64,000 bases of DNA, taken from Dillenia suffruticosa. Taxonomy: Eukaryota > Streptophyta > Magnoliopsida > Dilleniales > Dilleniaceae. Shown piece by piece: positions 11,287 to 51,353 of the stretch (the first letter of the stretch is position 1; every line of letters starts with the position of its first letter). Under the pieces are notes generated by a model that made no database searches, was not told where the DNA came from, and was given only the letters and a program-made list of their open reading frames with translations. Where the stretch lies: contig JAVTVX010000016.1 in the NCBI GenBank assembly GCA_033439265.1, positions 13,503,201 to 13,567,200 on the forward strand, in the 5' to 3' direction. The translations under genes and the position numbers were made by a program.

Positions 11287-11600
11287 AAATCAATAGTATT
11301 CTTATAAGGAATGAGGACATAAAAAAGCATTGAAAAGACTATCCTGATAACATCTTTAACGTTGAAAGTACAAGAAATATATTCAATATCGCGATATCTA
11401 TAGAAGAGATCAATAGAGATTTTAAACACAATATTCGTTCTCATAAAATAAGGGAGGCCCTAAAGAAAATGATGAATAATAAAGTTATAGAATCCAATGG
11501 TATCCCTATTAAGGTGTGGAACTGTTTAAATAAAATGAGCATAGAAATGTTGACGAATATTTTAAAGAAAATAAAATGCAACTATCAAAATCAGAAAAGA
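11287..11600 (+). mobile_element. LINE-A, RT N-terminal part, 3'-truncated
   Basis: It continues LINE-A after the solo LTR, beginning with the right AAATC copy. The translation reads toward the start of reverse transcriptase (REALKKMMNNKV, then NGIPIKVWNCLNKM near 11450-11540) and parallels LINE-B at about 44200-44440. The match fades near 11565-11600. Beyond 11630 the opposite strand is CCaMK. A LINE ending inside RT, without its 3' end, is not the usual 5' truncation and points to a deletion joining it to the kinase gene. Confidence 0.75.
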
Positions 11601-11629
11601 GGGGAAAAAAGGAGGAAAATTGTTTCGCC

Positions 11630-12066
11630 TCATCACCATTCAGAAAAAGGCAATTTTCTGGCTTCAATTCCCTATGAACAACATTGGCCTTATGAAGAGC
11701 AGCCAAGCCCTCAACTATAGGCTTGACTACTGTACCTGCTCCTACCTCCGAATACCTCTCCTGTGTCATGATCCGATCAAACAACTCACCCCCATAACAC
11801 AATTCCAACACTAGATGGACTCCATTAGAGTCCTCACACGCATCATACAAGTGAACCATATTGTGGTGAGGCGAAACAACCTCAACTATTTCCTCATGAC
11901 AAGTATTTCATTAGTCAACAATGCATCTGACATAGAGACATGTTTCCATGTTGGAAAACATGCAACCCAACTTCTAGGGAATCCAGGTGAGTTCATAGGA
12001 GAGATTCACTTTAAGGTCTTGATGGCAACATGGTTTTTTCGATCTCGGTCGACGATTTTCTTATCC
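11630..12066 (-). pseudogene. CCaMK: CCaMK pseudogene, second fragment (kinase N-lobe to catalytic loop)
   Basis: CCaMK is the plant calcium/calmodulin-dependent kinase that decodes nuclear calcium spiking in mycorrhizal and nodulation signalling. Read on the minus strand, the fragment gives the ATP-lysine motif VAIKT (about 12013-12030) and SDALLTNEILVMRK (about 11896-11938). Next come VHLYDACEDSNGVHLVLEL and GGELFDRI (about 11765-11859), then VHRELKPENCLFLNGDEA (about 11626-11680). These are the order and wording of the CCaMK kinase domain, about residues 30-175 of a roughly 520-residue protein. Defects include a shift in an A-run before VAIK, a stop after TLK, a stop or shift after LVMRK, and HRD changed to HRE in the catalytic loop. 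The rest of the kinase, the calmodulin-binding site and the EF hands are absent. Its upstream end carries the TATCC duplication of the copia insertion. Confidence 0.87.
12062..12066. repeat. Target-site duplication TATCC, left copy
   Basis: TATCC precedes the left copia LTR. The identical pentamer at 33227-33231 follows the right LTR. Read on the minus strand, it lies in the CCaMK codons just after the glycine-rich loop. Confidence 0.9.
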
Positions 12067-12547
12067 TAACCATCTAAACAAACTAAAGAGTATAATTTTT
12101 ATGTATAAAAATTTTAAGATTTAAGTAGGATTAGAATCACTTATCTCTTTCTAAGGATTGGGTATTCTAGCCTTAGAATATGTTACAAATTCAGATAATT
12201 TTCTTTTATTTACATTCCAAATATCTTTTGATGGTAATAATCAATCTTCTTCAACCCATCTCTTTGTTCTTTCTTTTTAATATGAGAAGAATCTATTTTT
12301 CTTTCTCACTTTTCTACATAACCCAAAAGAAAATGCTTTGCCTTTTTCTTCACTTTTCATAAATTCACGTATGCATAAAAAAATAGGCAATTGGCATTTT
12401 GAAAGGAGAGGGGACTTTTTTTTTAAGGAGAGAGAGGGAGTTGAAGGAAGTTTTATCCAAAAAACCATTCTCCCTTTTTTTCTCCCTTTTCAAATTTCAA
12501 ATGGTTCAGGTCTGCCCACATGGGAGGACTCATACCATACTCCAACA
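12067..12547 (-). repeat. Copia 3' LTR (left)
   Basis: It aligns along its length with 32719-33226. Shared blocks include 'atctaaacaaac', 'aatttttatgtataaaaattt', 'tgagaagaatctattttcg' (with changes), the 'gcattttgaaaggagaggg' segment and the terminal 'ccatactccaaca'. Just outside it, on the element strand, is the purine tract 'gagtgggaga' (from 12548-12560). The left terminus is mutated: TA where TG is expected. Confidence 0.9.
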
Positions 12548-14123
12548 TCTCCCACTCACACATAAGAGTTAAACTCACATATAACGTGATCATTACAATC
12601 GAATATCACCGATTTCATATAGGCAAGTGGATCGTCTAACTCGCGAGACTACCAAGAGTTTTAGGGCTATACATTGATTAACGATATATAGTAACTCACT
12701 TTCAATATGGTGATTTGAATGTCATATCTCGTTATACCCCAAATCTCTTTTACTCGACACAATCTATGTATATCTCGTCCCTCAAAACAATGTAAGAATA
12801 CACTTGACTCAAATCCAATCATATATCTACAATTACATCTTTAAATACTAAATCATAGATATAATTGACCAACTTATGAATACAGTGTAATGTGTCAGTC
12901 AAAGATAGTTTTCTTTTGATACTACTAACTTTTAACTTTATCTTAACTATTTTTTTAAACATATACCGTCAAACTTAATCAACCATAGTTTTTTAATGAC
13001 CTATGTAGTAGCAACACAAAAATAAAAATTCAAGAGATTGACGAAAGTCTTAAAAGTATAAATTAAGGTTAAATATGGTCACATAAGCACACATATGAAA
13101 CATGTACTACGATCCCCTTTCTTCCCATTTGGAAGCGTATATCTTCTTTTCTAAAACAACATATTGTATGAGTCTTAGTCCAAGTATACACAGCACTTGA
13201 CCTAGGTTTTCCTCCTTAGAAGTCCTCAAAAATCTCACAACATCAAGGAAAACTCACACCTAGTTATTAGACAAGTCTAATGAATTGTGGGGAATCCATT
13301 TTGATTACCATATATATAGTATATGTAATCAGTAATCGCATTTTCATACTTTACTAAGGCTACATGTATGTTAATTCATCACAAGTTAATATTGTCTCAT
13401 CTTTATATATATCATAAATATTAGAGACGATTGCACATATGAGAGAGTCAATCTCAAAAACTTGATCGACATACCTTCAAAAATAGATACAACAATTTTA
13501 GATAGAAAAATAAAATTCAAATATCAATAAATATGAGTATTACTTCATATATATTTTGTGTATGATTACAATTACAATCATATTCACAAATACTGCGATG
13601 ACTTATACAAATCAAAAGATCTAATATGTCTCACAAATATGTCTCGAGGTATTGATTTCATAAAATAATCAACCACCATCAAATGTATAGGCATATATTT
13701 TAGTATCACTTCCCTCTTTTTAATCATGTCACTGACAATTTTATATCTATATGTTTGCATTTACCATCGTATTTGAAGTCTCTAGTGTAAACAATAGTTA
13801 ACTAATTTTCACAATAAATAGTTACAACTCCAACTGAGTTGCTTACTACTACTAAATATTGCAAAAATTTACTTAACCAAACTTTTTTCTGAATTGCAGA
13901 AACATAGGTCACAAATTTTACTTTCATTATAGAAAGAGATATACAGGTTTTTTTATTACTCCATGAGATAGTGCTATTATTGAGTAAAAAGATATAACCA
14001 AAGATAAATTTTCTCTTATCTACATCAGCTCCCCAATCCACATCCATGTATCATTTTAATATTAGATCATTTCCTTGATAACAAAGGAAATAATATGTTA
14101 TTCCTTTTAGGTATCGCAACATC
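12548..14123 (-). pseudogene. Copia RNase H and 3' region remnant
   Basis: On the minus strand at 13802-14047 the translation contains DVDWGADVDKRKFIFGYIFL, then ISWSNKKTCISLSIMKVKFV, the copia RNase H signature (YTDADWAGD..., SWSSKKQ..., STMEAEY...). At the right edge, joined across the nested solo LTR, the codons read MLRYLKG, the conserved RT/RNase H linker of copia elements. The rest down to 12548 is non-coding, with no other signal. Confidence 0.85.
14119..14123. repeat. Target-site duplication ACATC, left copy
   Basis: ACATC at 14119-14123 is matched exactly by 18593-18597. It flanks the solo LTR and lies within the copia MLRYLKG codons. Confidence 0.92.
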
Positions 14124-17100
14124 TGTCACGCCCCGATCCTCGATCCAAGGCGTGAGCAACCGCCACGCTATCCCTAATTCTGACATTAAATTCTCAACTA
14201 TCAATAAACAAACGGACTGAATCTCCCCATAAATCGGAGGTCCATCCTATATCAAAATCCCATTAATTAATAACATATCAATGTATAAAAGCCAACCTGG
14301 CAAATCATCAACACAACCAACCAATCCACATCTCTATCAACATCCAAAATAACGTAAGGCTAATCCAGTTCTATCCACAGACCTCTACTGTCATACCCCC
14401 ATCAAAGGCATAAACAGTCGCCAGTCACGCTTCTTGTGATTTAGAGGTGGCACCGAGCGAACCTAATAGACAATCCGAGACATGACACGTTTCCCAAAGT
14501 GATTAAATATAAAAGTACATTCACACCTCAATGCAATACAATAAAATGAGAGTTATAATAATATGTACAATTCTTTACATACAATCATCCATTTTATATA
14601 CATGTACAATGGTCTATCTACAATCCCAAATATACAAATATATATATCATCTCATATCTTTAAACATAACCCTGCGGAATAATGGTTAACACCATACCCA
14701 GGTCTGATATCTCCAACAAAATCTCATACGCTGCTATGTCGCAACACTTCCCACTATAACTATCTCTGTGGAACAGAAAGTGAGGGATGAGTATTATGGG
14801 GAATACTCAGTGAGTGAGAGGGTATATATAAGTGTGTTCAATATGTTGGTGAAAAATGAAGTGTCAAAATGATTCAATAAATCCACAAGTCCGCATAATG
14901 TATGAAAGCAGTACATAATGAACAATTCATTATAAATCATTCTTTTTTTTTCATACATTTCAAATACATATGCATCCATATCAACCAAATCGCATAAGTA
15001 TAAAGCATGCCAAAATCAGTTCCTAGCAAAAGTCGACTACGACCAATGACAGGTGCATCGGGAGTTTTTATATGTAAAGTTAGAAAATGCTCTCTATCCC
15101 GACGTTGGCAACGAACCTCATCAGGTGCTAGACCAGGGCATTACCTAGTCCTCCCCCTTTCGGGTTCAACCCAACTAGTACCATGTCGATTCCCAATATC
15201 ATATATGACGTTTGGGGATACCTCGCGTATTCGGGTACCATGGGTGCCTCTGCAAATGCCCTTCGTAGCTACGGCATACCCAACTCATGGGCGTATCTCA
15301 AAAATCATATCATCATGGCAGGCATAAAGGCTCTCGGCCGATAACATAATATCATCATAATGTACGTCTCATGCCAACATTTATCAAACCATATCACACA
15401 CTTCTCATAATTGATTTTATAAAAATCATATGCATATCGATGCAATAGCACGTTTTTCATTTCGCAAATCATTTGGATGCATATTTCACAATAAAATCAT
15501 GTTATGGACATTCCAATGATTCACAAAACATTTCACAAATTCATTCCAAAAATCATAGCACACAATCATAAGTCATGCTTGCATTGAAAAGCATTTTAAA
15601 ACATGTTGTTATGTATTGAACATATAATATAATAAATCTCACTCACCGTATGCGGGAGGATACACCACTCCCGGCACGAATCTTGAGGCACACAAAAAAA
15701 ATGCTACCCTCAATATCACCAACAAAGCTCTATAAACACAATGTAGAATATGTGTCACTTAAGAGATCATATGATGCGTATATAATAACGTAAATGTCAT
15801 GCAACCCTAGTTATAGGCAAACTTAGGGTTTTCAAGTTCTATTCTTGTGCCATTTTAGGGAATTGACCATAAGTTCCTCAACCGGGGTCGGAATTGGGAA
15901 ATTTCAATATCTATGGTTGACTCACATAAAAACACACACTTTTAGTGTTGAACTTATCTCCAAAATCTCGGTGGAAGATTTCTTAAAATCCACATTTTCA
16001 AACCAATCTAAATCTCACTCTCCATTCTGTCCTGTTTTAGTAAATTTCCCCTATCTCACAATATATTCATGCAAAGACTCTAATTGTTGACGATGGAGTA
16101 GTTAAGACACAAGGCTACAACTTCTTAGTTGGGCGCTTTCTCAGATTCCTAGTGAAAGTCCCTGAAATAGCAACATTTTGCTTACATTACATTTTAGAAG
16201 TCTATTCTGACCAATTTTTAGCACAACGATCACAACGATTAACACATAACTCCAAATTATCTGATATTGTTACAGTACCTAGACGACATATAACCTTACA
16301 TTTTTCATGTTTTGGATTTCTTCCAATTATGCCTAGAAGGGGTCTGAAATTGACTACCAAAAGCTCTGTTCAGTTTTGGCCGAGAAACAGAATCATTTCT
16401 CCACAGTTTTGGAAGATTTTGTATAACGTTTGATTCTCATGGCCAGGTTGGCTGTAATTTTCAGAGTAGGTGGATACAAGGGAGCTCTACAATGTTTCTT
16501 CTTTGTGTTTTTGCAAACAAGGGCTGGAAGGGGGTTGTGCAATGCTACTATTTTTAGTGTTGGAAAATGGAGGACCCTCTAACGAGTTTCGGAAGAATGG
16601 CTGTAACGTTTGACATAGGGGTCAGATTAAGGTGATTCTTACCTCGTTGGAATGATAAGACATGGATCTACAATTCTTTCACTATTACAAGATATGAATC
16701 TATCAGGAAGGGGATTGAAAACTTAGGTTAATTTTGCTGCCGAAATCAGGGCAAAAATGCATGACAGAACAGGGAATTAGTGCAGAACATCTAACTTTGA
16801 AAACTCATATAAAATCCATCTCTACTTAGAATGCAACGGTTCTTATCTCATTTTAAAGCGCTGAATGTCTAGTGTCATGTGTAAAAAATTTCACTAAATT
16901 TGCCCTTGTGCAGAAAATGTTATGACCAAAATATCATTACATGGTCAGAATTTATTACCTCTTTGAAACTTTTAGTCTCTCTCTAGATCCACTTGGTTAG
17001 GCTTCTCCTTTCCTCCTAATTTTTGGATATGTTATACTAGGGTTCGTGAGAAATAAATCTACACCAAAATTTCAAAGAAAAGTTTGAAGAAATCTTACCT

Positions 17101-18592
17101 TCCTTCAAGAATGGAGCTCACGGTCCCCTCTCGAATCTCCACCAACAAAACTTCTCCTTTTATTCTAGTTTTTGGATATGTTATAGTTGGACATGAGTGG
17201 AATTGATCTATGAAAAAAAAATTGGGTGGTATTGTAGAAAAATTTTTGGATCTCTCACCTTAAACTCACGGCCATGGAGGAAGACTAGAAAGCATTTGTG
17301 TTCTTGCCTCTTTGCTTAGACATTGAAGTGTTTGGAAGGAGAAGGAAAAGTTAAGTATTTTTAGCTTTGTCAAGATTTTTCCCCAATGAATCTTAGCCAT
17401 CCAATATTTGTGAGGTTAATTCCTAACCCTAGGATTATTTGGCCACACAAGCAAAGCCTATTTTTTAAGTCAATTTCTAACTCTAATTAATTTTAAATAA
17501 TTTAACTCTATTTGGATTTAATCATTGTTAATTAAATAGGGTTAGTTTCTTCCAATCATGTAGTGTCACTTGTCAAGACTACACAAAATCCAATAAAATG
17601 GATTCACACATTCCAATAAAGTGAGTGCACACACTTCAAAAGCATTAAATACTTATCCTTTGTACTTATCCAGTCGTTGACTCGTGATCCAAAACTGGTC
17701 AAAGTTACTATTCATCTCAAAAATCTAAAATCGCACACTGGACCCAAGTTTTCGTGCTGAGTCGAATACCATTAGTTTTGCATTAGTCTAAGGTCGTTTG
17801 ATTGCCCAAACGTCATTCGGAGTGAACGAAATTTTCCATCGGTCAAAATTTGACCTCGACCTCGAAATGCGTGAAATCTCATCACAGACTCCATTTTACG
17901 CATAGATTTCAAAAATATAGGTTTTGAGTGGAAACGAGATCGTTTGCTCGGTCAAATTTTGATTTGACCCACAAATTTAAGATTTATCGGGTGAAAATCT
18001 AGGGTACCAATCACTTTTGTGCTACAACTTAAATTTTGATTTTTTATCTCAGGCATTCAATTTTAAAATGAATTTAGCACGTATAAATCACACGACATCA
18101 ATTTTGCACGCATGGGTTTCATTTTGGCTTGGTAGGGTAAATTTTCATCCTACCGGGCGAGTTTTGGCAAATTTCTCAAAATCTCGTTTTGACTTATGAA
18201 AATCATTAGTTAGCCTAAATTTGATTTCTTGGCAAAATTTCAGCAATTTTGCACGGTAGATTTTGATTTGGCTGGTAGGAGCTCATTTCTCATCCCCCGA
18301 CGAGTAGTCATCGAGCACTTCCGAGCAAACGATGTGGTTTTGCCCAAATTCAAGTTTTGTTAACTTTTTAGGGTGATTTTACACGTGTAATTCATTGGAC
18401 TTGAAATCACACACGTAAATTTCAAAATAGCTCGAAAGGGTCCCTTTTTAGCCCCCGGGGCCAGTCCAAAATTCTTCTAACGCATTTTGTCTCAGAAAAA
18501 TTTTTGAGTGATTTTCTATATGAATAAGAAGATGTATCATTTATGGAGTAATGAGAAGTACAATATATAATACACTGTGTATCGGTGTTACA
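14124..18592 (-). mobile_element. Solo LTR, 4.47 kb (copy E2), nested in copia
   Basis: On the + strand it runs TGTCACGCCCCGATCC ... ATCGGTGTTACA, the inverse of copy E1, with exact ACATC duplications. Blocks shared with the LTRs at 19300-28265 include 'caaaggcata' followed by a 'cgccagtc' segment (near 14400-14460), the 'gagtactcagtgagtgag'-type block near 14790-14820 and the 'ccgacgttggcaacg' block near 15095-15115. No retrotransposon protein domain is visible, and open frames inside it stay near or below 106 codons. Solo LTR status is inferred from the absence of any internal domain. Confidence 0.87.
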
Positions 18593-18597
18593 ACATC

Positions 18598-19299
18598 CTT
18601 TTCACAACAATCCAAAAACTCTTACTTAGATTGAATTGATACCTGCGACCAAACCCATAATATGACAAATATCGGGACAACTACACATCATAGCATACTT
18701 TAAATTCACAATTGTACTAGAATATGGTTTCTAGATATTTCAACTATTTATCAGGAGTTTTTGAGTATATGTTATCGTTTAAACTATCGCCTTTAGTTAC
18801 AAAAGTATCAATGGATTTTTAATTTTCCATTCTGAATCGTTCCACTAGTAATTTTTTGAAACGATCTCCATGGATCTTAACTCTCAATCTACCTCATCCA
18901 TATCCTTCATCTCAAGATTGGAAAATAACCATTTCAAAATTTGAAAGACATATTTCTTATCATTTACGATTAACAATATGTTCTCGATATATAGGGTTAT
19001 AATTACAAACTTATTATCGGATTTCTTTACATAGACACAATGGTCTTCATCCATTATGACGAAATTGTAAGAGATCACACATTCGTGAAATCTCAAATAC
19101 CATCGTCTAAAAAAATGCTGAAGATCATAAATTATATGTTCAATTTGTATACTCTGTCTTCTTGGCCTTTAATGACAAAACCCTTTGATTGTATCACATA
19201 GACTTTTTCCTCAAGTTTTCCATTAAGGAATGTAATCTTCACATCTATGTAACATAATTTTAAATCCAAATTGCCCACTATTACCAATAACATGCAAAT
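18598..19299 (-). pseudogene. Copia reverse transcriptase, C-terminal part
   Basis: On the minus strand from the nested insertion at 19299, the reading is CMLLVIVGNLDLKLCYIDVK, then ITFLNGKLEEKVYV and SKGFVIKGQEDRVYKLN, the copia RT block that normally reads MDVKTAFLNG. It is followed at 18884-19096 by DHCVYVKKS, ITLYIENILLIVND and LEMKDMDEVD. The catalytic YVDD box is degraded to YIEN, so the enzyme is inactive. Confidence 0.87.
19295..19299. repeat. Target-site duplication CAAAT, left copy
   Basis: CAAAT precedes TGTCACGCC at 19300 and is repeated exactly at 28266-28270 after GGTATTACA. Joining across it restores the copia RT reading from ...SRFTSI to CMLLVIVG.... Confidence 0.95.
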
Positions 19300-20839
19300 T
19301 GTCACGCCCCGAATCGGGATCGTGAGCAGCCGCCCGTTGTCTTGAATGCCGGTTGTATTTTTACAGAAAATCAGGCAGAATCTCCCCGCATATCGGAGGT
19401 CTCTCATATAACAATCAACCTGCTACCTATACAATAGGGCCAACCCGGCCTCACAATACATAAATCAAATCTTAATATCAGACCAACACATTCATACCGC
19501 ACAATCCAGGACAACGCAAGACTAACAAAATAAATTTCCGCAGTCCTAACCACAGATCTCTACTGCCATCCCCCGTCAAAGGCATGAACAGCCGCCAGTC
19601 GCCCCTCCTGAGATTTAAAGGTGGCACTGAGCGGTCCTAAAGTACACTTTTAGGACATGACACATTCCCAAGTGACATACACAATGAATAGAAATTGCCT
19701 CAATACAAGTGTTATACAATGACATGAGAGTTCCACAATTTAAATATTCATATTTGTACAGTCATTCCAGAATTATACAATGGTCATCTATAGACTCCAA
19801 AATACATATACATCATCAATACAATTTTTAACTCACAAAATTATAGCAAAAATATATAATAACTCCTCAAATCCAGACCAGATCTCCCAATGATACTAAG
19901 CGTCCTAAAAGCAACGCTCCTTGCCAAATACTACCTCTGAAACAAGAAGGGAAATGAGGGGTGAGTACTCAGAGAAAGAATACTCAGTAAGTGAGTGGGT
20001 CAATGCAATCGTCTAATAAGAATTGTGAAACTGGAATGTCAAAGCGTAAGTATACAAATCATACTTCAAATTATCATGTTTTTCATTTCAACAATATATC
20101 ATTTGCATACATTATCAAGTCAAATATACATTCAAAGCATTGTCATTAAAAATCATAGAGCTGCCAGCCGAAAGTATCCTGGCAGAAGTCTACCTCAACC
20201 TATGACAGGCATACCGGGGGTGTTATATGCAAATTTATTTAAAGTGCTCTCTACCCCGGCGTTGGCGACGGACCTCATCCAGGTGCTACATTTGGAGAGA
20301 GTATCCAAATCCTCCCCCTTTTCGGGTTCAACTTGGCTAGTACCGTATCGTTAACAAACGCATTTAAATAAATCACACTCACTGTATGGGGGAGGATAGC
20401 GCACTATCCAATAATACCACGAAGTGAAGAAAAGTGCTCCTCTAAATCAAGGCACCCAACACCTATGAATGTAAATATATAAAAAAATCAACAAGTTTCA
20501 AACCTATGCAGTTATAGGAAATAGGCTATCACTTCTAATACACGTATGCAAATCAAGTAGTTCGAATCCTTTAGAACGCTTCCCTAATTCCTCATATTTT
20601 GTTCATGCATACAACATATCTACAAGACTCAAGTGTTGATACTCAACCAATCCCGCACAGGGCTCACACCAATCCAATCTCTTGCTCGCACCTAAGGGCC
20701 AGCAAGGCTACAGCCCAGCGCTCCTTTGTGCAGTGCACAGCGCCCATGTGCAGGGCGCGCAATGCCCATGTATAGGGTCCATGTGCAGGGCGTGCAGTGC
20801 CTATGTGCAGGGTCCATGTGCAGGGCGCGTAGTGCTCAT
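19300..20839 (-). repeat. E3 3' LTR, truncated to 1.54 kb
   Basis: It is nearly collinear with 25124-27060. It lacks about 350 bp present in the other LTR (26175-26518, missing at about 20354), and ends abruptly inside the 22-bp minisatellite at 20839. Beyond that point the sequence is integrase. The missing part is the element-sense 5' portion of the LTR (U3 side), so this LTR has lost its promoter half. Confidence 0.9.
20725..20839 (-). repeat. 22-bp LTR minisatellite, short copy
   Basis: GC-rich units of 22 bp ('cgcgcaatgcccatgtataggg'-like, with 'gtgcaggg' ends) alternate with 13-bp short units ('tccatgtgcaggg'). The same array is longer in the other LTR at 26890-27100. Open frames translated from it (repeats such as PAHGP) are artefacts. 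Confidence 0.88.
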
Positions 20840-23175
20840 AACAAAGTCCATAGTCACATGTTCCCACTTCCATACAGGATTGGGAAGAGGCTGTAGTAAA
20901 CTCGCTGGCCTCTGATACTCAGCCATCACCTGGTGACAGACTAAACATCTAGTTACAAACTCCGCAATGTCCTTCTTCATACCTGGCAACCAATAGCTAC
21001 CCCGAATAGTTCAATACATCTTATACTACCCGGGTACAAGGCATAGGCTGAGGAGTGTGCCTCCTCTAATATGGACCTGCAGAGATCCTCATCGGTAGGT
21101 ATAGCCACTCTATCTCGATAAGTTAGAAGTTCATCACTACGGACTCTGAAATCATCTATATCACCTCTGCGGGCTTTCTCAGTAAGAGCCTAGAGCTCGG
21201 TATCAGTGCCCTGAAGCTTCGTAATATGATCCAACAGCGTCAGCCTGATCACAAACCTGTCTAGTAGAGTGTCCCAATCATCACTAGCCAATCTGACTCC
21301 CAAATCCCGGAGTCCCATCAAACAAGTGAGGTATGTCATATTGTTCTCCTAAGACGATGAAGCTGATTTCTAGCTCAAGGCATCAACAACCACATTGGCC
21401 TTGCCTAGATGATAATCAATGACAAGATCATAATCTTTGAAAAGTTCTAACAATCTCCTCTGTCTCAGGTTAAGTTCTCGCTGGGTGAATAAATATTTTA
21501 GACTTTTATGATCTGATACACCCGGCAAGTCACCCCGTACAAGTAATGGCGCCATATCTTCAATGCGAAGACTTTGGCCGCAAGCTCCAGATCGTGTGTT
21601 GGATAATTCACCTCATGTTTCTTCAACTGTCTAGAAGCATAGGCGATCACCCGACCATTTTGCATCAAAACACAATCCAACCCTTGTCGGCTAGCATCAC
21701 TATACACCGTGTACTCCCAACTACTGGTGGGAAGTGCCAAAATCGGAACTGTAGTCAACCGTTGTTTGAGCTCCTGAAAACTCGCCTCACAACGGTTATC
21801 CTATACAAACTTGACACCCTTTCGTGTCAATCTAGACAATGGTGCAGTTATCCGGGAAAACCCCTCAACAAATCTACAGTAATACCCGGCCAGACCAAGA
21901 AAACTCCTGATCTTAATCACTGTCTGTGGCTGCTTCCATCTCATAATGGCATTGACCTTCTGCAAATCGACAAAAATCCCCTCTGCAGAAATGACATGCC
22001 TAAAAAATCCAACCTGTCTTAGCCAAAATTCACATTTTGTGAATTTGGCATACAGCTGCTCATTGCAAAGGATCTGTAAAATGGTGCGAAGATGCTGAAC
22101 ATGATCCTTGTTACTACGCGAATACATCAGTATATCGTCTATGAAGATTATGACAAACTGGTCCAGATAGTCATGAAAAACTCTGTTCATCAAGTCCATG
22201 AACGCAGATGGGGCATTAGTCAGCCCAAACGGCATGACAAGGAATTCATAGTGCTCGTATTAAGTGTGGAAAGCTGTCTTTGGCACATCTTGAGTCTTAA
22301 TCCGCAACTGATGATATCCCGATTAAAGATCAATCTTCGAGAAAACTCTGGCACCTTGTAATTGATCAAACAAATCATCTATGTGAGGCAGTGGATATCT
22401 GTTCTTCATAGTCACCCGATTAAGCTGCCTGTAATCAACACACAATCTCAGTGAGCCATCCTTTTTCTTTACAAACAGTACTCGAGCACCCCAAGGTGAC
22501 GTGCTAGGATAAATAAACCCCTTATCCAGCAACTCCTGCAGCTAGACCTTGAGATCTCTCAGCTCAGCTGACGCCATTCTGTATGGCGGCACGGAGATAG
22601 GGGTAGTCCCTGGAGCTAAATCGATCTCAAAGTCGAACTCCTGAACCAGTGGTAATCCAAGTAGCGCCTCGGGAAAAACATCAGTAAACTCCTGTACTAC
22701 TGGAACATCTTCAAGTTTCAATCCCTAAGCAATGGTATCTATGATGTGAGCCAGATATGCTGCACACTCGCGACAAATCATGCGTTTGGCATCCAAAACT
22801 GAAATGACACAGCGGGGTAAAACCCGCTTCTCGCCCTCAAAAATCAACACTGGCTAATCGGGTTTTCGAAACTCCACCTGCTTTTTAAAGCAGTCAATTA
22901 AAACCCGATGCATATGTAGCCAATCCATCCCCAAGATGGCATCAAAATCAGTCATGGCAAGACGGATTAGATCTACTTTCAGCACTGTATCCCCAACTTT
23001 GATATTATATTCTCTATACACTGTGTCGCGCACAATCTGTTCACCCAGAGGAGTGATGACCAATATCTCCTCGTCCAAAGGTGAGAGCAACCTGTCAAAA
23101 TGTCAGGAGAATTGATCGCTTACATACAAATAGTTAGACCCCGTGTCAATAAAGATACAAGCATCTATTCCGAAA
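20840..23175 (-). pseudogene. E3 pol remnant: protease, RT, RNase H, integrase start
   Basis: On the minus strand, protease begins with FIDTGSNYLYVS near 23130-23165 and continues to FDAILGMDWLHMHRV near 22910-22960. RT runs about 22560-21800: [35 protein letters not shown], the catalytic [15 protein letters not shown] near 22119-22155, and [14 protein letters not shown]. RNase H lies at about 21760-21370 ([16 protein letters not shown], then [19 protein letters not shown]). Integrase keeps CLVCHQVMAEYQRP and WKWEHVTMDFV, then stops at the deletion junction at 20839/20840, so the DDE core is gone. Stops occur at several points. Confidence 0.92.
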
Positions 23176-24800
23176 ATAGATAGAGTACCTATCATTGAAC
23201 AAAATGCACATAGACTTAGAATAATTTCAAATTTGATATATATATATATATATATATATGTCAAAATAGTTGAGCCTCTATGGCTTTTACAATTTCTGTG
23301 TATAAAGATGTCAAAATAGTATCATGTCAATAAAATGGTACACAACATAAAATACCTATACAACTATCATGATACAATGCTGACATCCCCAAAAGAAGTG
23401 GAAATACGAATAAAGATCCTATTTTATAGGATCAAAAGGAGGAATACCCGTGGTGATGTCGAGGTTCGCCTGGGTGTCCTCTTGCGTCATGGCATAAACC
23501 GGGGCCTAAGCCCCAAGCTGCTGTCATACCTGGGTCTGCACTGTGTTACTCCCGGTGGTCACCCTGGGAGTAGAAGATGCTGGTCGAGTAGGCTGCCCCT
23601 GCTGACCCATATGAGAAGTACTAGTGTGACTCTGTGAACTATGTCTTCCGAGTCCTAACTCAGGGCAAGAACTCCTGATATGCCTCGGCTTCCCATAGTA
23701 GAAGCAAGTGACCGACACTAAACAATCTCCTATCGAATGGGACCTATTGCACCTACGGCAATGAGGATGCCGCTGAGTAGTATACTGTGCAAGGTGAGTC
23801 GGAGTGGACTGTCTGAACCCCTGGAAGTACTGTCCCCATCCCAGATTAGAAGATCCAGATCCAAATCTGTCTTTGTACGAACTGGATCCCCTGCCCCTCT
23901 TGGAGCTCTGCATAGAATGAGACTTCTCTTTCTTTCTCTTTAGCTCTCTGTTCTCTCTCTGCCTAGTCTCGGCCTGGACCAAAGCCTCCACGCGGTGAAC
24001 AGAGTCTATCACCTCGACCAGGGTAAACTATGGAGTAACAGTCATATACTTCTTTATGCTGAGGCTAAAACCGTCTTTGAATTTGAAGCGCAAATACTGT
24101 GTGGCCAGATCTGGTACAAATGCGGCAAGTCTCTGCATGTCTACCTCATACTCTGAGATAGAGCCGTCTCAGATCTGACCTCATCCGATCCTACTGGTAG
24201 AGTGGGAAGAATCTGTGGTCAAACTCCCGAAGGAAGTTATCCCACCGCAGTGGCTCTATCACCTCATCAGTAAGGACCTCCCACCATAAGAGGGCCTCTC
24301 CTTCTAATAATCATTATGCCACTTTCAGGCAGAGCTCCTCTCCAATCCCTAGATCAGTCAAGATCCTGAGGGTACGGTTGATCCAATGCTTGGCTACCGC
24401 AGCATCACCAAGCCCTATGAAATCAGTGAACCCCAGCTGACGGGCCTCCTCAACCAACTGAGTCAACTCATGTACCTATCCAAGAGTAGCCGATGTGGTC
24501 TCACTCGGCTCTGACAAGATAGAAGGACCGGCCACCGGCGGTGGAACCGGTGCCGAAGGAACTGGGGCTGCAGCAGGCGCAGGCGCTGCTGTAGGAGGTG
24601 GTGGGGGCGGAATCTGGACCCCATGCGAAGTGTACCACTCGTACACCTACCGAAATGCATCGAGTGTGGATATAGGAGTCTCAGCCTGAGCAGCTGGCTG
24701 AGTAGGTGCTGGTAGTGGCACGCGAGTCGAGTAACGATCCTTCGGCTAGTCTAATTCCTCCGGTGGGGCAAAACAAGTGCTCCGTCAGGTCGTCATACTT
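23176..24800 (-). pseudogene. E3 gag remnant
   Basis: On the minus strand from about 24793 there is a proline/alanine-rich N-terminus (near 24530-24620). The retrotrans-gag core follows near 24200-24450 (LGFTDFIGLGDAAVAKHWI, LLEGEALLWWE). A basic/serine-rich C-terminal part is at 24012-23524. The zinc knuckle reads CFYYGKPRHIRSSC near 23655-23710, so the second cysteine of the CX2CX4HX4C pattern is tyrosine. Stops are scattered through it. A (TA)n run lies between gag and protease at about 23238-23261. Confidence 0.83.
23238..23261. repeat. (TA)n microsatellite within E3
   Basis: An uninterrupted alternating TA run lies between gag and protease remnants, where coding sequence would be expected. 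Confidence 0.9.
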
Positions 24801-25104
24801 CTGCAAGATAAGAATCCTTATTAGGTATCGTTCAAAGAATAGGCATGATTCAAGAAATTTAGACTGGTCATATCTTGACTAACCTCACAAAGAATCGATC
24901 CTTAAAAAAAGCATGTTAGGTTAGATACAACCGTATCTAACCCTCCTAAAATAGATGGACTCATATACCTATGACTATATACTGGGACTTCATGACTGTA
25001 TGAAACTCTCATGCATTGAGGACTTTAAACACAAACACACATGGGAATGTTTTCAAGACTCTCTTCCTACATAGCTCTCTTCCTACATAGCTCTCAACCT
25101 AGAG
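24801..25104 (-). other. E3 leader between primer-binding site and gag
   Basis: About 300 bp of untranslated leader. It contains a short direct duplication ('tcttcctacatagctctc' near 25067-25097). No gene. Confidence 0.6.
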
Positions 25105-25116
25105 CTCTGATACCAA
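25105..25116 (-). other. E3 primer-binding site (initiator tRNA-Met type)
   Basis: On the minus strand the 12 bases read TGGTATCAGAGC, the standard complement of the 3' end of plant initiator tRNA-Met. It lies 7 bp inside the 5' LTR end at 25124 and fixes the element orientation. Confidence 0.93.
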
Positions 25117-26889
25117 GTCAACTGTCACGCCCAAAACCGAAATTGTGAGCAGCCGCCCGTTGTCTTGAATATCGACTGTATTTTTACAAAAAATCAGGCA
25201 GAACCTCCCCACATATCGAAGTTCTCTCATATAGCAATCAACCTGCTACCTGTACAATAGGGCCAACCCAGCCTGACAATACATAAATCAAATCTTAACA
25301 TTAGACCAACACATCCATACCGCACAATCCAGAACAACACAAGGCAAACAAAACAAATTTTCACAGTTCTAACTACAGACCTCTACTACCATGCCCCCGT
25401 TAAAGGCATGAATAGCTACCAGTCGCCCCTCATGTGATTTAGGGGTGGCACCAAGCGATCCTAAAGTATACTTCTAGGACATGACACATTCTCAAGTAAC
25501 ATACACAATGAATAGAAATTGTCTCAATGCAAGTGTTATGTAATGACATGAGAGTTCCACAATTTAAACATCCATATTTGTACAGTCATCCCAGAATTAT
25601 ATAATAGTCATCTATAGACTTCAAAATATATATATATCATCAATATAATTTTTAACTCATGAATTTATAATGAAAATATACAATGACTTCTCAACTCCAT
25701 ATCAGATCTTCCAATGATACTAAGCGTCCTAAAAGCAACGCTCCTTGCTAAATACTATCTCTAAAACAAGAAGAAAAATGAGGGGTGAATATTCAGGGAA
25801 AGAATACTCAGTGGGTGAGTAGGTCAATGCAATCGTCTAATAAGAATTGTGAAACTGGAGTGTTAAAGCGTAAGTATACAAATCATACTTCAAATAATCA
25901 TATTTTTTATTTCAACAATATATCATTTGAATGCATTATCAAGTTAAATATGCATCCAAAGCACTATCATTAAAAATCATAGAGCTGCCAGCCGAAAATG
26001 TCCTGGTAGAGGTCTATCTCGACCTATGGCAGGCGCACCGGGGGTGTTATATGCAAATTTATTTAAAGTGCTCTCTACCCCGACGTTGGTGACGGACTCA
26101 TCCAGGTGCTACACTTGGAAAGAGTATCCAAATCCTCCCCCTTTTCGGGTTGAACCTGGCTAGTAGCGTATCATTAATAAAATCAAGACAACTCGAGGGA
26201 TACCCCAGGCCTAGGCATATCCAAACGCCACCTAAGCGCCTCTCATGGTGTCCTTTGTGGCTACAAAACAATACATACCAAAGCCCTCAAGGCCAAAATC
26301 AATATCGTATCGAGAATGTGTCATAATATGCAATATATAGCGTAAAGAGGTACATTATACATTTCAACCACATGGATGCATAATTTCATAATTCAACCCA
26401 ATTTTTTGACACTCCATCGGTTCACAAAACGTCAGTTCCAAAACCAATCAAAACATTTCAAACACACGACAAATCATACTCATTTATCAAAATGTTATAA
26501 AACAGGATTTACATATTAAACAAACGCATTGAAATAAATCACACTCACTGTATGGGGGAGGGTAGCGTACTCTCCAATAATACCACGAAGTGAAGAAAAG
26601 TGCTCCTCTAAATCAAGGCACCCAACACCTATGAATGTAAATATATAAAAAAATCAACAAGTTTCAAACCTACGCAGTTATGGGAAATAAGCTATCACTT
26701 CTAATACACGTATGCAAATCAAGTCGTTCGAATCCTTTAAAACCCTACCCTAATTCCTTATATTTTGTTCATGTATACAACATGTCTACAAGATTCAAGT
26801 GTTGGTACTCAACCAATCCCGCACAGGGCTCACACCAATCCAATCTCTTGCTCGCACCCAAAGATCAGCAAGGCCACATCCCAACGCTC

Positions 26890-27100
26890 CTTTGTGCAGC
26901 GCGCAGTACCCATGTACAGGACGCGCAATGCCCATGTACAGGGTCCATGTATAGGGCGCACAGCGCCCATGTGCAGGGTTAATGTGCAGGGCGCTCAGCG
27001 CCCATGTGCAGGACGCGCAGTGCCCATGTGCAGAGTACATAGCGCCCATGTGCAGGGCGCACAATGCCCATGTGTGTGGCGTACAGTGCCTGCACGCCAA
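26890..27100 (-). repeat. 22-bp LTR minisatellite, long copy
   Basis: About seven 22-bp units ('cgcgcagtgcccatgtgcaggg' type) are interrupted twice by 13-bp short units ('tccatgtataggg', 'ttaatgtgcaggg'). The 13-mer equals the last part of the 22-mer, so the array has a mixed period. Confidence 0.9.
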
Positions 27101-27189
27101 CCATTTCTCCTCATTTCTAAGCTTAACCCTAACATTCATTCAAATAAATCGAATGGGTAATAAATTTTTTTTTCACTTAGGGTTTTCTC

Positions 27190-27960
27190 GAAGCGCAGAC
27201 CTTCGTCCGAATGTCTTCTCGATCACTCCATAATCTACAATGCTCCTTGCGCAAAGGTTCGTGGGCTCGTGGGCTCGTAGGCTCACGGGCCGTCTCGGGC
27301 TCCGGGATACAGTGGGCTCGAGGGTTCGCGGGTCAGCAAGCTAGCCAGCTTGCGGGCCGTAATGGGCTGGCGGGCCTACGGGCTTGCGGGCTGGGACAGC
27401 AATCGCGGGCTGTTGCACGCTCTGTCGCTCTACGGCTCGCTCGGGAGAGGGCCGCGCACTTGCTAACAATCACGCTCACGGGCTATCGCGCTATTGCGGA
27501 GTTGGTGCGAGCTGGAGGGAGAGGGAACCACTGCAGTCACGCGCTGGCGCGCTCGCGAGAGGTCGAGCTCTGTGGCATGCTCGTACAAGGGAGATCATGC
27601 TGTGGCGCACTCGCGCAGGGGAGTTCGCAATGTGGCCCTCTCGCACGGGGGAGATCTCGCTGTGACACGCTCGCGTAGGGGAGGATCGCGCTCGAGGAGA
27701 GAGAGTGGCGGAGGGTGGCGAATCGCAGTGGAGGGCGAGCCGAAGAGAGGGAGAGCGAGTGACAGTGAGAGGGAGATCGTGAGTGAGGTAGAGAAAGAAG
27801 ACAGAGGGAGAGTGGCGAGGCGACGGTGGTTGGGTACGGTTGCTCGCGGTGGAGAGAGGTGGCGGGGCGAGTGACCGATCGTGGTGGAAGAAGAAGGCAG
27901 CCGCGGGAAGGTGAAGAGTCGGGGAGAGAGAGAAAGAGGAAGAGAGAGAGAGATAGAGAA
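27190..27960 (-). repeat. GC-rich, internally repetitive block in the E3 LTR
   Basis: The block is strikingly GC- and CpG-rich against an otherwise AT-rich window. It consists of imperfect short repeats: 'gggctcgtgggctcgtaggc'-type units at 27265-27400, and about 33-bp units with 'ctcgcgcaggggag' near 27570-27690. It grades into purine-rich GA repeats up to 27960. It has no equivalent in the truncated 3' LTR and none obvious in the two solo LTRs. Confidence 0.8.
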
Positions 27961-27999
27961 ATAAAATTAGGGTTTCCAACCCTAATTGGAAAAAGGGGA

Positions 28000-28034
28000 G
28001 AGATGCTGCGTTTCACTCCAAAACGTAGCATCTC
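28000..28034. other. Hairpin-forming inverted repeat in the E3 5' LTR
   Basis: A 14-nt arm at 28000-28013 (GAGATGCTGCGTTT) pairs with 28021-28034 (AAACGTAGCATCTC) with one mismatch and a 7-nt loop. It sits between a GA/CT-rich strip and the GC-rich block, on the 5' side of the LTR in element sense. Confidence 0.8.
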
Positions 28035-28265
28035 CTCTCTCTCTCTCTCTCTTTTTTATACAAACGGGATTTACTTCGATTCACGGATTCGGCAAATTAA
28101 AATATACCAAAATTTTAATTTAAATACCCCAAAATTAAAAATCAATTTAAATAAATAAAATTCTCTCTCTATATAAATAAATTGAAGAATATCTTCTTTA
28201 TATATATATATATATATATATCGAAAATGGTACAATATTACAGACACCGCAGTATCGGTATTACA

Positions 28266-31200
28266 CAAATAGAGGTAAATCTACTAATGGGAAAAGATTT
28301 CCTCATAATCAGCACTCTTTTACTAAATGTAATCTTTTGCTACAGTCAAGCCTCATATCTCTCAATAGTTCAATCTGCCCTACACTTGGTTTTAAGAACC
28401 AACTTGTTCTCAGTAATCTTGTACCCTAACAGAAGTTCAACCAATTTCTAAAATATGGTTGGATCTCATTGGTTCTAATTCTTTTTTCATTGTTTTTTCC
28501 ATTGATTCTTGGTAGAACTAGATAGAGTTTCATTATGTTCTTAGACTCTTCTTTATCTTCTAAAAAACAATAAATGCGTGCTCTTTAATTTCAAAATAAT
28601 GTTTGGGCACACTTTTCTTAGTACTTTTCTAAATTTGTAACTCAGTTAGATCACTAGTATTTAAATCTCTCTCACTGGAATCAATATCTAACTTATTTCC
28701 TCGTGATTCCTTTGATCCAATATGGACAGAGACATTTTTTGAATTAATTAATTCAATTAAAAGCTCTATGTTCTTTACGTCATCTCTACTAAGAAATTCA
28801 TTTTCAAGAAATGTGACATCTATGATCCAATCTCTCCTACAATACCATACTCTTATTCACCAATGAACACTTAACCTTTAAACCGGTCAAAATATCTTAT
28901 AAAGATACTCATACTTCCACGAGAGCCCAATTTCCAAAGTTATTGAAAAAAATCTAAAATATAGATGGCCAATCCCTAAGATCTGAAGTTTCTCAAACAT
29001 ACATTTCTACCAGTTCAAAGTTCATATAATGTCGTTGGTATTGACTTTGAAGGTGATTTGCTCAGAACATAAGTCGCTATCAATAAGGCATCTTCTCAAA
29101 AGGAAATCGGCAAGTTATTCTATGACATCATGAATCTTATCATATCCAATAATGTCATATTCCTTCTCACCACAACACCATTCTGCTAAAATGTATAAGG
29201 AATAGTCAAATGCCAGATTATGTCTCTTTCATTACACAATTTTTTAATTGATTTGATAGATATTCATACTCCATATTTATTCTAAAGATTTTTTATCGTT
29301 CTATGCATTTGAATCTCTATCTCATTCATATAAGATTTAAACCACTCGAGTGTTTCAGATTTGTGACAAAACAAATAGACATGGCCAAATCCTGTGAATT
29401 CATCTATTAACGTAATGAAACACAGTTCCATATTTAGTCTTCATATTCATTGGATCACAAATGTCTGAATGAACTAGCAATAATGGAAATTCAGCCCATA
29501 TGGCATTTTTAAATGGTTTTTTCATCATTTTACTGATATGACAATGTTCAACTTAATGGTTAAACATTCGTCAATCGCAGTGTAATGCCATGAAACCATT
29601 TATAAGTTATCCAGAACCAATATACATGTTATTCAAATACAAACTAACTCTGTCTATTTGAAAGTTCAAAATATGGTCAAGTTTCAAAAGAATAAGAACA
29701 TATATTAAATTATGTTGAATTCTGGCATATAGAGAATATCATGCAAATGAGAGTTCATCTATTTTGTAACTTGAATTTACAAGTGTCAACTCCTCTAACC
29801 TCTAGTTTTGCATTGTTCCTCACATAAATCTATCTCCTACCAGAAGGCATTTGATGAAAATTTACAAATATCTCTTAGTCTATTCTAATATCCAGAGTTA
29901 TTCTTTTGGGAACTATCAACAATCTCCTTTCCTTTCATTTTTTCGTTCTACTCCCTTTTACGCTTAGAGTCCGAAACTCTCTTGAAACTAGACTTTACAA
30001 TAAAAACATTAGTTGTGGACCTTGAAACACAAAATCATTCATCCTTAAGCTCAACGTGACCAGCAATATCCAAGAAAGACTTTTCATTCCATTGTAAATC
30101 AAATTGACTTTTAAGTGCTCCCACTTGTCAAAAAATGATCAAAACGAAATTTGAACTTTCTTTTCATCGAATAGGACAAGACCAGCTGACTTCACCTCTC
30201 TTATAATGTTAGATATGACCCTTTTTTTATATTGTGACCATTTCATCTTTTGTAGAAATCAAACTTTACAGTTAATTATCTAAGATAAGTCACACTGATA
30301 CATTCATATTTCTCTTTGGGCTACACCCAAATGACATAAGCAATCAAATATTGCTCACTCAAGGATCGTGCCATCAATTATAGAGTTAACCAGGGTTACT
30401 CAAACAGTGGAATCTTTCCTTTTTCATGCATTATGAGCATCTTGTTTTCTTCTCTACAAGGCAGCATTGCCCACATCAGGATGCTACATGACATGCCTGA
30501 TACCTTTTAAGGTATCTTGTTCTTTTAGCGCATTCAACATTTTATGACGTCATATCTCATTATCATTGTCATTCAATTTGTCACCTTTATTTAAATCCGT
30601 AATAATGGACTTTGATACTAGAGTTTGGGTTTCCAAGAGGGTGGATACAAGTACTAATACTCATATCACACATACAATTTTATACTTTAAAACTAATATT
30701 CATGACAGATCAACATTAAATATAAAATCAAAAATTCACTAGATTCTCAATCATCACCTATGGTGATATCACCATCACAAATTAATTTAAAATTACAAAA
30801 TGTAATATGTTTTAGGTGAGAATTATTCAAATTTTTTCAATCAAAAACCTCCCACTTAAATATATAAAGTCTTTAAATAATATTACAATTTTGAATGAAA
30901 ATTACTCAAATTCCACCGATTCAAAATTTTCATTTAAATACATAAAATATTTAAATAATATTTCAATTTTGAATAAAAATTACTCAAATTCTACCAATTC
31001 AAAATTTTTATTCAAGGGATTCTAATTTTCTTTTGCATATATGATCATGTGAAAAACAATAATTATATCCAATCATATTCTCAATAGAAACTTTATATTA
31101 AAAACTTAAAAATTTCACTAGTACACGATTCTAACAGACAGTTCCAATATGCAAAAACAAAATATGAAAATTTATTATTTCAATTCAAGACAAATTTATT

Positions 31201-32718
31201 CGAGATATCATATTTACAATTCGCTTAGATAGTCAATCTCTAAGAGTAAATCTCCTTATAGCACGTGGGGAGCTATATAGACTTTGGAATAACATTTTCT
31301 TCATCTGGATCTTTATATTCTTGACTTCCCCCTTTTCTATTAATGATGGCCTCACATTGTCAAGAATCATGTGCCCATTCTAGCCAATCAACTCATCAAC
31401 CATGTTAACCCGTAAGAAGGTAGAGAATTTCTCAGAATGTGCACATCATCCCCCAAAAGGCATGACCTAATAGAATAAATTCTAAGCATTTCTCTTACAT
31501 CATCTCCAAATGATTAGACAAAGTATGAGATGGATCCATTTTATAAGTCAACATTTGACTCAATTTCATCAAATGCTTTAAAGTTTTCAAATCTCTTTCC
31601 ACTCCCCCAGAGATCCAGAAAAGCTCCAAGAATACATCTGATTATCACGATTTCCCTAAAAATGGGAACTATATTAGGTCGGACATACAACCAACCATAA
31701 TATTATACAAAAAATTCAAAAATACCAATTTCAAATAATATGCTCAATTTTTAATTAATTTTATGTTTTTTAAAAAAATCAAATATAAAAAAGAGTATAA
31801 AATCAAAAAAGTGTAAACAATTTACATTTGGATAGCCAAAATTAAGAAAATAATTTTCTACACTCATACAAAATTTTTCAAAATTTTTTGGGACTAAAAA
31901 ATGATTTTTCTATAATTTTCTAACAATTTATAAGTTTAAAAATCAATAAAAATTATTTTTTAACTCTGAAAAATAAATTTAAAATCATAAAAAATCCAAA
32001 AAGAATAGAAAATTAATTCGGTGAAAATTCCGACCGAAACAAGCTGCTACACGTGCCCCTGCACGCCTTTGTGGTCAATTGTGCAAAACGAAAAAAAAAA
32101 AAAGAAAGTTGCTTCCTCACGCACCAACTTACCGACGGCACGTGAGGCTTACACGCCGCCTTACCGACAACAGACGAGTACTAAAGTTTGGCTACCCTCA
32201 TTTTCAATATCTCTGAGTTCAATGGTGATCTCAATTTTCAAATCGGGCTTCTCTAACCTATTAAGTGGATTTCACATGCCTCTGCTAAGAGTAAGATTGG
32301 AACATATGCACCGTTTATCTTCTCCAATTTTCCTTTATTTTTCTGTAATTTGACTCAAACTTTAAATTGGCATATCTTTCTAAATTCTTAATTATTTTTC
32401 ATATTTTTTATATGGTTGAAAAGTATTTTTCCAAAGAAATTTAACTATATAAATTTCGAATTACAAAATACAGTATTCTAAAAGATACAAATATATTAAA
32501 TTTCGGCTATAATTTGAAATATGTCATAATGTACTTGCATATCAAATTTTACAAATTTAATTCTCATGTCACAAATATGCTACTGTGTTGAATTGAGAAC
32601 ATTTTATTAAATCAATTTCAAGTTGTCATTAATGCACCATAAACAATGTCCATGATATTTTTCATATTTTTAATACCCAAAAGAGGAAGAAAACAATCCA
32701 AGACCACTCTAATACCAA
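28266..32718 (-). pseudogene. Copia gag, integrase and first part of RT, decayed
   Basis: On the minus strand nearest the nested element (28266-28440), the reading ENKLVLKTKCRAD, TIERYEA, KSFPISRFTSI is the copia RT N-terminal block (usually NKWVFKTK...IERYKARLVAKG...SPVS). Integrase is recognisable at about 29350-29500 by LLVHSDICDPMNMKTKYGTV and an eroded FIDDFTRYGYVYLL segment. About 31490-31600 resembles copia gag (HLMKLSQMLTYKMDPSHTLS). Stops and shifts occur throughout, and 30600-31200 and 31700-32700 are AT-rich with no readable domain. Confidence 0.78.
32704..32717 (-). other. Copia primer-binding site
   Basis: On the minus strand, TGGTATTAGAGTGG is a slightly mutated form of the initiator tRNA-Met site TGGTATCAGAGC. 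It lies one base inside the 5' LTR and fixes both element orientation and the LTR edge at 32719. Confidence 0.88.
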
Positions 32719-33226
32719 TGAAGATCTAAACAAACCAATAATCATAATTTTTATGTATAAAAATTTCAGAAACTAAGTTCAATTGGAATCATTTATCTCT
32801 TTTTGATAATTGAGTATTCTATATATAGAAGATATAACAAAATCAGATCACCTTTTTTATTCACAATCTAAATACCTATTGATGGTAATGATCAATTTTC
32901 TTCAAAACCTTTCTCTTTATTCTTTCTTTTCAATGTGAGAAGAATCTATTTTCGCTCTTACTTTTCTACATAACTCAAAAGAAAAATGCTCTGCCTTTTT
33001 CTTTTCTTTTCATAAATTCACGTATGTATGAAAAATGGGCGGTTGGCATTTTGAAAGGAGAGGGGGTGCTTTTTTTTTTTTTTGAGAGAAAGGGAATTGA
33101 GGGAAGTTTTATATCCAAAAAACCATTCTCCCCCTTTTTTCTCCCTTTTTCAAATTTCAAATAAATGGTTATGAAAATTTTGGGTCTGGTCTACCCACAT
33201 GGGAGGACCCGCACCATACTCCAACA
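32719..33226 (-). repeat. Copia 5' LTR (right)
   Basis: This 508-bp LTR starts TGTTGGAGTATGG on the minus strand (33226) and ends GATCTTCA at 32719. It aligns with the left LTR at 12067-12547. The two differ by many substitutions and small indels, so the insertion is not recent. Confidence 0.92.
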
Positions 33227-33231
33227 TATCC
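33227..33231. repeat. Target-site duplication TATCC, right copy
   Basis: Identical to 12062-12066. It overlaps the last codons of the first CCaMK fragment. Confidence 0.9.
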
Positions 33232-33316
33232 CTCTTCTCACTACTGAAAATCCTCCTCTGCCTAATATGTCTTGAACTTCATGGTCTTTACAAAGTCTTC
33301 TTGTTTCCTGACCCAT
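33227..33316 (-). pseudogene. CCaMK: CCaMK pseudogene, first fragment (start codon to glycine-rich loop)
   Basis: The minus-strand ATG at 33314-33316 opens MGQETRRLCKDHEVQDILGR, followed by GGFSVVRRG. This is the CCaMK N-terminus (M-G-x-x-T-R-x-L ... V-L-G-R-G-G-F-S-V-V-R) with an intact GxGxFxxV ATP loop. At 33227 the reading runs into the copia LTR. Removing the copia element and one TATCC copy continues it into 12061 and below as IRKSSTEIEK. This fragment contains no stop; the damage lies in the second fragment. Confidence 0.88.
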
Positions 33317-36300: not shown

Positions 36301-36480
36301 ACCGGATTAATCGAATAAAATTCAAATACCAATTAATCCAATACAAAAAAAAAAAAAATGTGGCTGTAAGATGAAGGCTTGAATCTGATTCCACTTATAA
36401 TTCTCGAGTTAAGCCTGCCTTAATTTGGAAGAAGGCATAATTTTGAGCGAGTTTTGAGTGCCATAAATTAAATGTTAATG
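33317..36480. other. Intergenic DNA upstream of CCaMK, no gene seen
   Basis: This would include the former CCaMK 5' UTR and promoter. It is AT-rich and holds an (AAT)n microsatellite near 33905-33957, a T-run at about 34015-34030, a run of about ten C near 34360-34370 and a T-run near 34547-34560. Open frames of up to 106 codons have no motif. Confidence 0.6.
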
Positions 36481-36533
36481 AGAAGATCAAGTGTGGTGAC
36501 CTCTGAAGTGGATATCTTCTCTTTTTTCCCTTT

Positions 36534-36582
36534 TTCTGGTGCCCGGCCCCTGGGGGGCCGCAGGGGGAGGGGCGGGGGGGTA
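36534..36582 (+). other. G-rich patch with G-quadruplex potential
   Basis: Several runs of three to seven G ('ctggggggccgcagggggagg', then 'ggcggggggg') sit in AT-rich surroundings, next to a self-complementary 'ggcccctggggggcc'. Four or more G-tracts within about 30 bases satisfy the usual G4 pattern. Confidence 0.7.
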
Positions 36583-37040
36583 TAAGCGAGAGGAAAAATA
36601 GGGGATACCAATATAATCACTCTCCCTCACATTAACATAAGAGTCTCCACTCCAACCGGATAAAGTATTGTATATCCACATAAAGATGCACAAAAGGAGT
36701 TTGTCCAAAGCTTGTCAGGTGGCCTCCTGAAACAAAACCTTGCTCAAACCTTTTCCATTTATGAAACCAAATCTGCTGCTCCGTTCATCCCCAATGCTTT
36801 GGTGCAGGAACTCCACCACCGATCTGAACAAGTCCAGTTTTGTAGCATTCAAAGTAGTGAAATAATGTGCACCGTATGTAAAAACACACACACAAATGCG
36901 TTCCTAAAAAGGGTTTCTCAGATCAAATAGTGACCATGATGTAAGAGGTATATTGCTTCCAGTTCACATTATTCATATACATCAACCCAGAATACAGATC
37001 CCAAAAAAATAGATAAATGAATAAAAAGGATCATCGTGGA

Positions 37041-37189
37041 GACAAACCAAATTCCGCTTCATTGACTCCAAGAACCGTCCGAGGAATTTTTACAATGGCC
37101 AAATTATACTTGGTGCTTAAATAGGTCATTGAAAAGCCTAGCACTGCGATCAGTAGAATTGCGGGTATAACTTCTAGAATCAAGTCTCT
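37041..37189 (-). CDS. Doubtful terminal exon of an unrecognised membrane protein
   Basis: On the minus strand, after a pyrimidine-rich stretch ending in 'cctttag', an open segment encodes a hydrophobic span (EVIPAILLIAVLGFSMTYLS) followed by a basic tail ending GLSPR and a stop. A second open segment upstream (about 37385-37550, ending at a plausible CAG/GTATTT donor) could be another exon. I do not recognise the family and cannot link the pieces into a gene. It may be a gene remnant or chance. Confidence 0.2.
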
Positions 37190-37599
37190 AAAGGAATAAA
37201 AAAGCTTGTTATTCCTACTCAGCTGAATACATGTACATCTTCTGCATTGACCCATGCGAAAGTTTTTTTTTTTTTTCCCGGGGGATCTCTAAGACTAAAA
37301 TGTACAGGAGTTTCCTGGCAGCTGTTTACATAGAAGCCATGAGTAACTAATCTATGAAAAGGCTATAGATAAGAATGAGAAATACCTGTGACTTTATTAC
37401 ACATAAGACAAGAAACAACATACACAGCTGGTTGTGAGCCCAAAAATAACAGCTTCGCTGCCTCTAACTGCTGCTTTTGCCGAAGATGATAGCAATAATT
37501 TAGGTATGAGCCTGCATTCACTACACCGTAAGTCCATCTTGTAGAACCTGCCACATACAGAGTGCAGTGCTTATATTGCAATCACCTAGTCAAGCATGA

Positions 37600-42880: not shown

Positions 42881-42889
42881 TACAAGTAC

Positions 42890-51352: not shown

Positions 51353-51353
51353 T

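Follow-up and report, generated by a model that had tools for sequence, protein, structure and literature searches.

The CCaMK fragment in the window, a 64,000-nucleotide stretch of the Dillenia suffruticosa genome (C16:13503201-13567200), is most probably a truncated tandem duplicate that was dead on arrival and received a copia-type element only later, with an intact gene adjoining it; we put the probability of this reading at about 0.8. In the proposed sequence of events, a tandem segmental duplication on contig C16 would have copied a stretch that starts inside CCaMK exon 1 and ends inside a LINE-like repeat. The left copy would have retained the whole gene, and the right copy, which lies in the window, would have obtained only the upstream region and the first ~175 codons. 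The break would have been sealed by a short filler templated by a stretch of the fragment itself, perhaps through microhomology or polymerase-theta-type snap-back end joining. Afterwards, a copia-type element would have landed after codon 30 and in turn have taken up a nested Gypsy-type element. The feature is ordinary in kind, a well-resolved pseudogene or gene relic. All genome searches below were run on the 596-Mb assembly of 37 contigs.

The fragment lies on the minus strand in two pieces. Positions 33316-33227 encode MGQETRRLCKDHEVQDILGRGGFSVVRRGI, which translation and alignment to the intact gene (copy A) identify as codons 1-30, comprising the N-terminus and the glycine-rich loop. Positions 12066-11628 carry on the same exon 1 through about codons 31-175 with broken frames, and are 89% identical to C16:13444064-13444504. 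An earlier reading made from the letters of the window, hereafter the sequence-only reading, had placed the N-terminal piece at 33227-33316 and a kinase segment at 11630-12066, and translation bore out both, the latter reaching 11628. The three lesions it had described are all seen against copy A, namely a 1-base deletion ahead of VAIK, a stop at codon 49 and the replacement of HRD by HRE; at the MRK codons, another 1-base deletion, absent from its list, was seen as well. Homology to CCaMK stops abruptly at 11,628, within exon 1 (about codon 175 of 515), and none was found to the left of this position. Protein comparison of CCaMK with the window gave three matches (codons 1-30, 37-88 and 87-175), and neither DNA nor protein comparison found the rest of the gene in the window. 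The fragment fails as a functional CCaMK because it has no complete open coding region for the kinase, CaM-binding and EF-hand parts. It represents the frameshifted 5' end of a CCaMK/DMI3-type gene, without the activation segment or the CaM-binding and EF-hand parts.

When the second half of the fragment was searched against the genome as DNA, four matches were returned: itself, C16:13444064-13444504 (89%) and two pieces on contig C34 (84-86%). As a peptide, it was 83% identical to copy A and 71-73% to the two C34 pieces, and the other 69 of 73 rows reached at most 51% identity, with 150 of 248 candidates scored. A better match to a CDPK or CRK, which would have spoken against a CCaMK, was looked for and did not appear, and we rejected a CDPK/CRK origin because the peptide is closest to copy A. 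PDB sequence searches (E up to 0.001) listed chains named as CDPKs, CaMKs and other kinases among the best 60 of 749 and the best 60 of 2937; these rows carry no organism and only such names, so the PDB matches leave the subfamily to be settled by the intron phases, the CaM-binding spacing and the within-genome comparison.

Exon 1 is split by a 21.2-kb insert of the copia type. As the sequence-only reading had stated, an exact TATCC stands on each side of it, at 12062-12066 and 33227-33231. The 3' LTR (12067-12547, minus-strand reading) and the 5' LTR (32719-33226, minus) are 84.1% identical, with a K2P distance of 0.182 over 478 sites. A purine-rich stretch (12548-12557, minus strand) adjoins the 3' LTR, and beside the 5' LTR is what we take to be an initiator-Met-like primer-binding site (32707-32717). 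Nine pieces of the insert were compared with Pfam and six matched. Two of them are copia-type reverse transcriptase pieces (RVT_2, E 3.1e-8 and 7.3e-9) at 18887-19308 on the minus strand. The other four are of Gypsy type (protease, RT or RNase H), one of them an RVT_1 match at 22326-22541 below the Pfam cut-off; the pieces at 13805-14050, 23527-24027 and 28632-28856 had no Pfam match. The Gypsy-type protease, RT and RNase H pieces lie between the LTRs (about 19297-20839 and 25120-27005) of a nested element at 19297-27005 on the minus strand. The pieces at 14366-15188 resemble the LTR of this nested element and are perhaps a further solo or broken LTR. Paired LTRs, the target-site duplication and the RVT_2 pieces identify the insert as a copia-type LTR retrotransposon and uphold the claim that such an insertion splits the gene. 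The arrangement resembles known copia elements with a nested Gypsy in its LTRs, 5-base target duplication and RVT_2, and in the RVT_1 and RNase H of the nested element; it is old and degraded, and nothing unusual was seen in it. Querying the genome with the copia LTR gave 44 matches with 40 of 400 candidates scored. Beyond the two LTRs themselves, the best-scoring of these covered about four fifths of the query at 68% identity, so that nothing closely related to the element came to light. Both copy A and the C34 copy lack the copia insertion, and these empty sites show that the two halves were once contiguous, as the sequence-only reading had claimed.

The broken end of the fragment at 11,628 coincides with the seam of a larger duplication. 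When C16:13430001-13503200 was compared with the window, 21 rows of at least 60 bases resulted, 17 of them collinear and four off-diagonal repeats that were set aside, and comparison of the junction and the right flank added four more collinear blocks to give 21 in total. These blocks share one order and orientation, with unit A running from C16:13444064 to window 11572 and unit B from 11628 to 44473. Apart from the copia insert, unit B consists of 11628-12066 and 33228-44473, including the region upstream of CCaMK (33317-34244, minus), which is 83-90% identical to C16:13444501-13445422. Unit A ends on the right in a plus-strand fragment (11287-11572) that is 72.6% identical to the one with which unit B ends (44184-44473, plus); we call it LINE-like by eye, and Pfam matched none of four reading-frame pieces from the region at E up to 0.01. 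In unit B the repeat runs on past 44,473 into sequence for which unit A gave no match; the remainder of CCaMK was found only in A and had no match in unit B. Since the LINE-like fragment on the left and CCaMK exon 1 on the right are both cut off at 11,573-11,627, the site has the pattern of a tandem-duplication junction, and the collinear direct copies, joined at a novel junction where both partners are truncated, identify a tandem segmental duplication. Read in gene sense, the sequence departs from copy A after GATGAGG and continues as CGAAACAA, an 8-base filler at 11620-11627. Together with flanking bases, the filler matches 11867-11879 within the fragment itself over 13 bases in inverted orientation; none of 1000 shuffles reached 13, the longest match being 12. 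This suggests that the junction was sealed by templated end joining. Further to the right in the window, an open 759-codon frame on the minus strand (49118-51397) has FAR1, MULE and SWIM domains in Pfam and represents an apparently intact FAR1/FHY3-related gene.

The junction bears directly on the view of the sequence-only reading that a copia insertion had killed a whole second CCaMK gene. An exon split by the insert and a clean TATCC duplication speak for this view. Against it, the comparisons recovered no part of CCaMK past about codon 175 from the window copy, and the fragment breaks off at a rearrangement junction that carries a templated filler, so that we regard this view as very unlikely. 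Because the breakpoint lies inside exon 1, with both partners cut and a filler between them, the fragment is probably a 5' piece that never encoded a kinase, and the copia would have hit a piece already dead. It is also unlikely, if less strikingly so, that a larger tandem duplication produced two whole CCaMK genes and that a junction deletion, before or after the copia insertion, later took the 3' part of the second. The window copy might then once have been whole, the ends would look the same, and the uneven divergence of the blocks described below leaves room for more than one event; however, this history needs two rearrangements where one suffices. A truncating tandem duplication, probably as a single event, thus stays the preferred explanation. 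A degraded CCaMK duplicate that lost coding parts while the other copy was kept is likewise described for poplar PtCCaMK1 in PMC4672059. That duplicate is ascribed there to genome duplication, whereas the present case involves a segment duplicated locally in tandem and broken in exon 1, and a separate relic on C34.

The divergence between the units is uneven. Left of window 42,900, K ranged from 0.041 to 0.272 over 17 blocks (median 0.117); in the four right-end blocks it ranged from 0.252 to 0.367, some two to three times that median. The right-end blocks lie at window 42890-44473 and at C16:13509262 to window 11572. They may consist of faster-changing repeat DNA or represent an older stretch. 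Their higher divergence, and a LINE name that Pfam does not support, slightly lower our confidence in the preferred explanation. An assembly duplicate, or two haplotypes left uncollapsed, has a negligible probability as the source of copies A and B: both sit on one contig, but their median block K of 0.117 left of window 42,900, their many unit-specific insertions and the discrete junction speak against it.

A second LTR element is present in unit A only, from C16:13502170 to about 13509263, its right LTR occupying window 5305 to about 6063. Its LTRs are 76.7% identical (K 0.292), and the corresponding site in unit B, at about window 42899, is empty. As each of the two LTR elements is absent from the sister unit, both are probably younger than the duplication. 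Their LTR K values (0.182 and 0.292) nevertheless exceed the median of the 17 blocks left of 42,900, which supports faster change of repeats in this region. Such faster change would explain why the copia LTRs seem to predate the divergence of most low-copy blocks even though the site is empty in copy A. LTR dating therefore calls for caution here, since gene-like rates would put both insertions before the duplication. Over the 171 codons common to the three CCaMK copies, synonymous and nonsynonymous changes on each lineage numbered 9 and 4 for A, 11 and 22 for the window copy (B), and 15 and 19 for the C34 copy (C), with Fisher tests giving p=0.046 for A vs B and p=0.066 for A vs B and C combined. 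Small as they are, these counts lean towards constraint on A and towards decay in the other two copies.

Searching the genome for other CCaMK loci, as the sequence-only reading had proposed, yielded a complete gene and a broken one. The complete gene, copy A, lies about 70 kb to the left of the fragment on the minus strand (C16:13444589-13441125). Its seven exons (704, 55, 111, 233, 208, 60 and 177 nt) are separated by six introns, all GT-AG, and its 1548-nt coding sequence translates into 515 aa with no internal stop. The intron phases derived from the exon lengths are 2,0,0,2,0,0, matching the usual CCaMK pattern 200200 given in a survey (PMC4672059), in which 23 of 34 CCaMK genes have six introns (one of the 23 with a different phase pattern) and newly found members measure 499-550 aa. 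The kinase domain (PF00069, E 4.8e-62) has HRD at 160 and DFG at 183, and three visinin-like EF hands were detected (PF13405, three stretches). In the CaM-binding segment, which has the conserved FN, residues F318, L324, I329 and W333 keep the spacing of the CaM-binding residues F327, L333, I338 and W342 of MtCCaMK, as listed in PMC5696362. T262 stands 71 residues before W333, as T271 does before W342 in Mt, and by this spacing, which assumes no indel between, it is the main autophosphorylation Thr (Lj T265/Mt T271). Residue 9 is Cys rather than the Ser found in 56% of 51 CCaMK proteins according to the survey in PMC4672059. With six introns, phase 200200, and kinase, CaM-binding and three EF-hand parts, copy A is like the land-plant CCaMK/DMI3 genes described in that survey. 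A literature text search for its CaM-binding peptide together with CCaMK found no occurrence. When the peptide of exons 3-7 was searched against the genome, five of the 19 matches were copy A itself (70-97%), one was a C34 exon-7 remnant (90%) and 13 were at most 37% identical. Within intron 1, an 80-base unit spanning the exon-2 acceptor and the first exon-2 codons is tandemly repeated (C16:13443367-13443532); the repeat, an 86-base match with 97.7% identity, yields a decoy acceptor and could disturb splicing. Judged by its sequence, copy A is presumably active.

The broken copy, on C34 (16422255-16466938), extends over about 44 kb and is collinear with the window in inverted orientation. Stops interrupt it at codons 33, 71 and 223. 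Its start codon and exon 7 lie about 40 kb apart, and the 60 kb examined yielded none of exons 3-6. Its exon 1 carries a separate LTR insertion of about 7.2 kb with ACTTG on either side, independent of the window copia, and by eye we take its pol to be of copia type. In a 1017-site block, K was 0.241 for A-C, 0.272 for B-C and 0.135 for A-B, and in a 311-site block the values were 0.130, 0.153 and 0.089, respectively. By these distances, the C34 copy branched off before the split of A and B. One could imagine that CCaMK twice returned to a single working copy, once with the C34 copy and once after the tandem duplication, with independent LTR insertions in the spare exon 1s, because an extra dose is harmful, but we hold this to be quite improbable. 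Among the matches listed in literature searches on CCaMK duplicates, pseudogenes and retrotransposons, no title concerned this locus.

The sequence-only reading had asked whether the lineage has a functional CCaMK elsewhere or has lost the symbiosis pathway. The first part is answered by a gene that is complete by sequence, and the second finds no indication. A genome search with the CASTOR/POLLUX mid-domain (PF06241) gave five matches at four places, with CASTOR/POLLUX-type exons, and a CYCLOPS C-terminal probe gave five matches of 83-86% identity, with CYCLOPS-like two-exon pairs on C2 and C5. With a complete CCaMK about 70 kb away and exons of both these kinds in the genome, loss of the pathway is not indicated. 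A false lead is thereby removed: with the complete gene next door, finding a symbiosis gene broken in a single window does not amount to a lost pathway.
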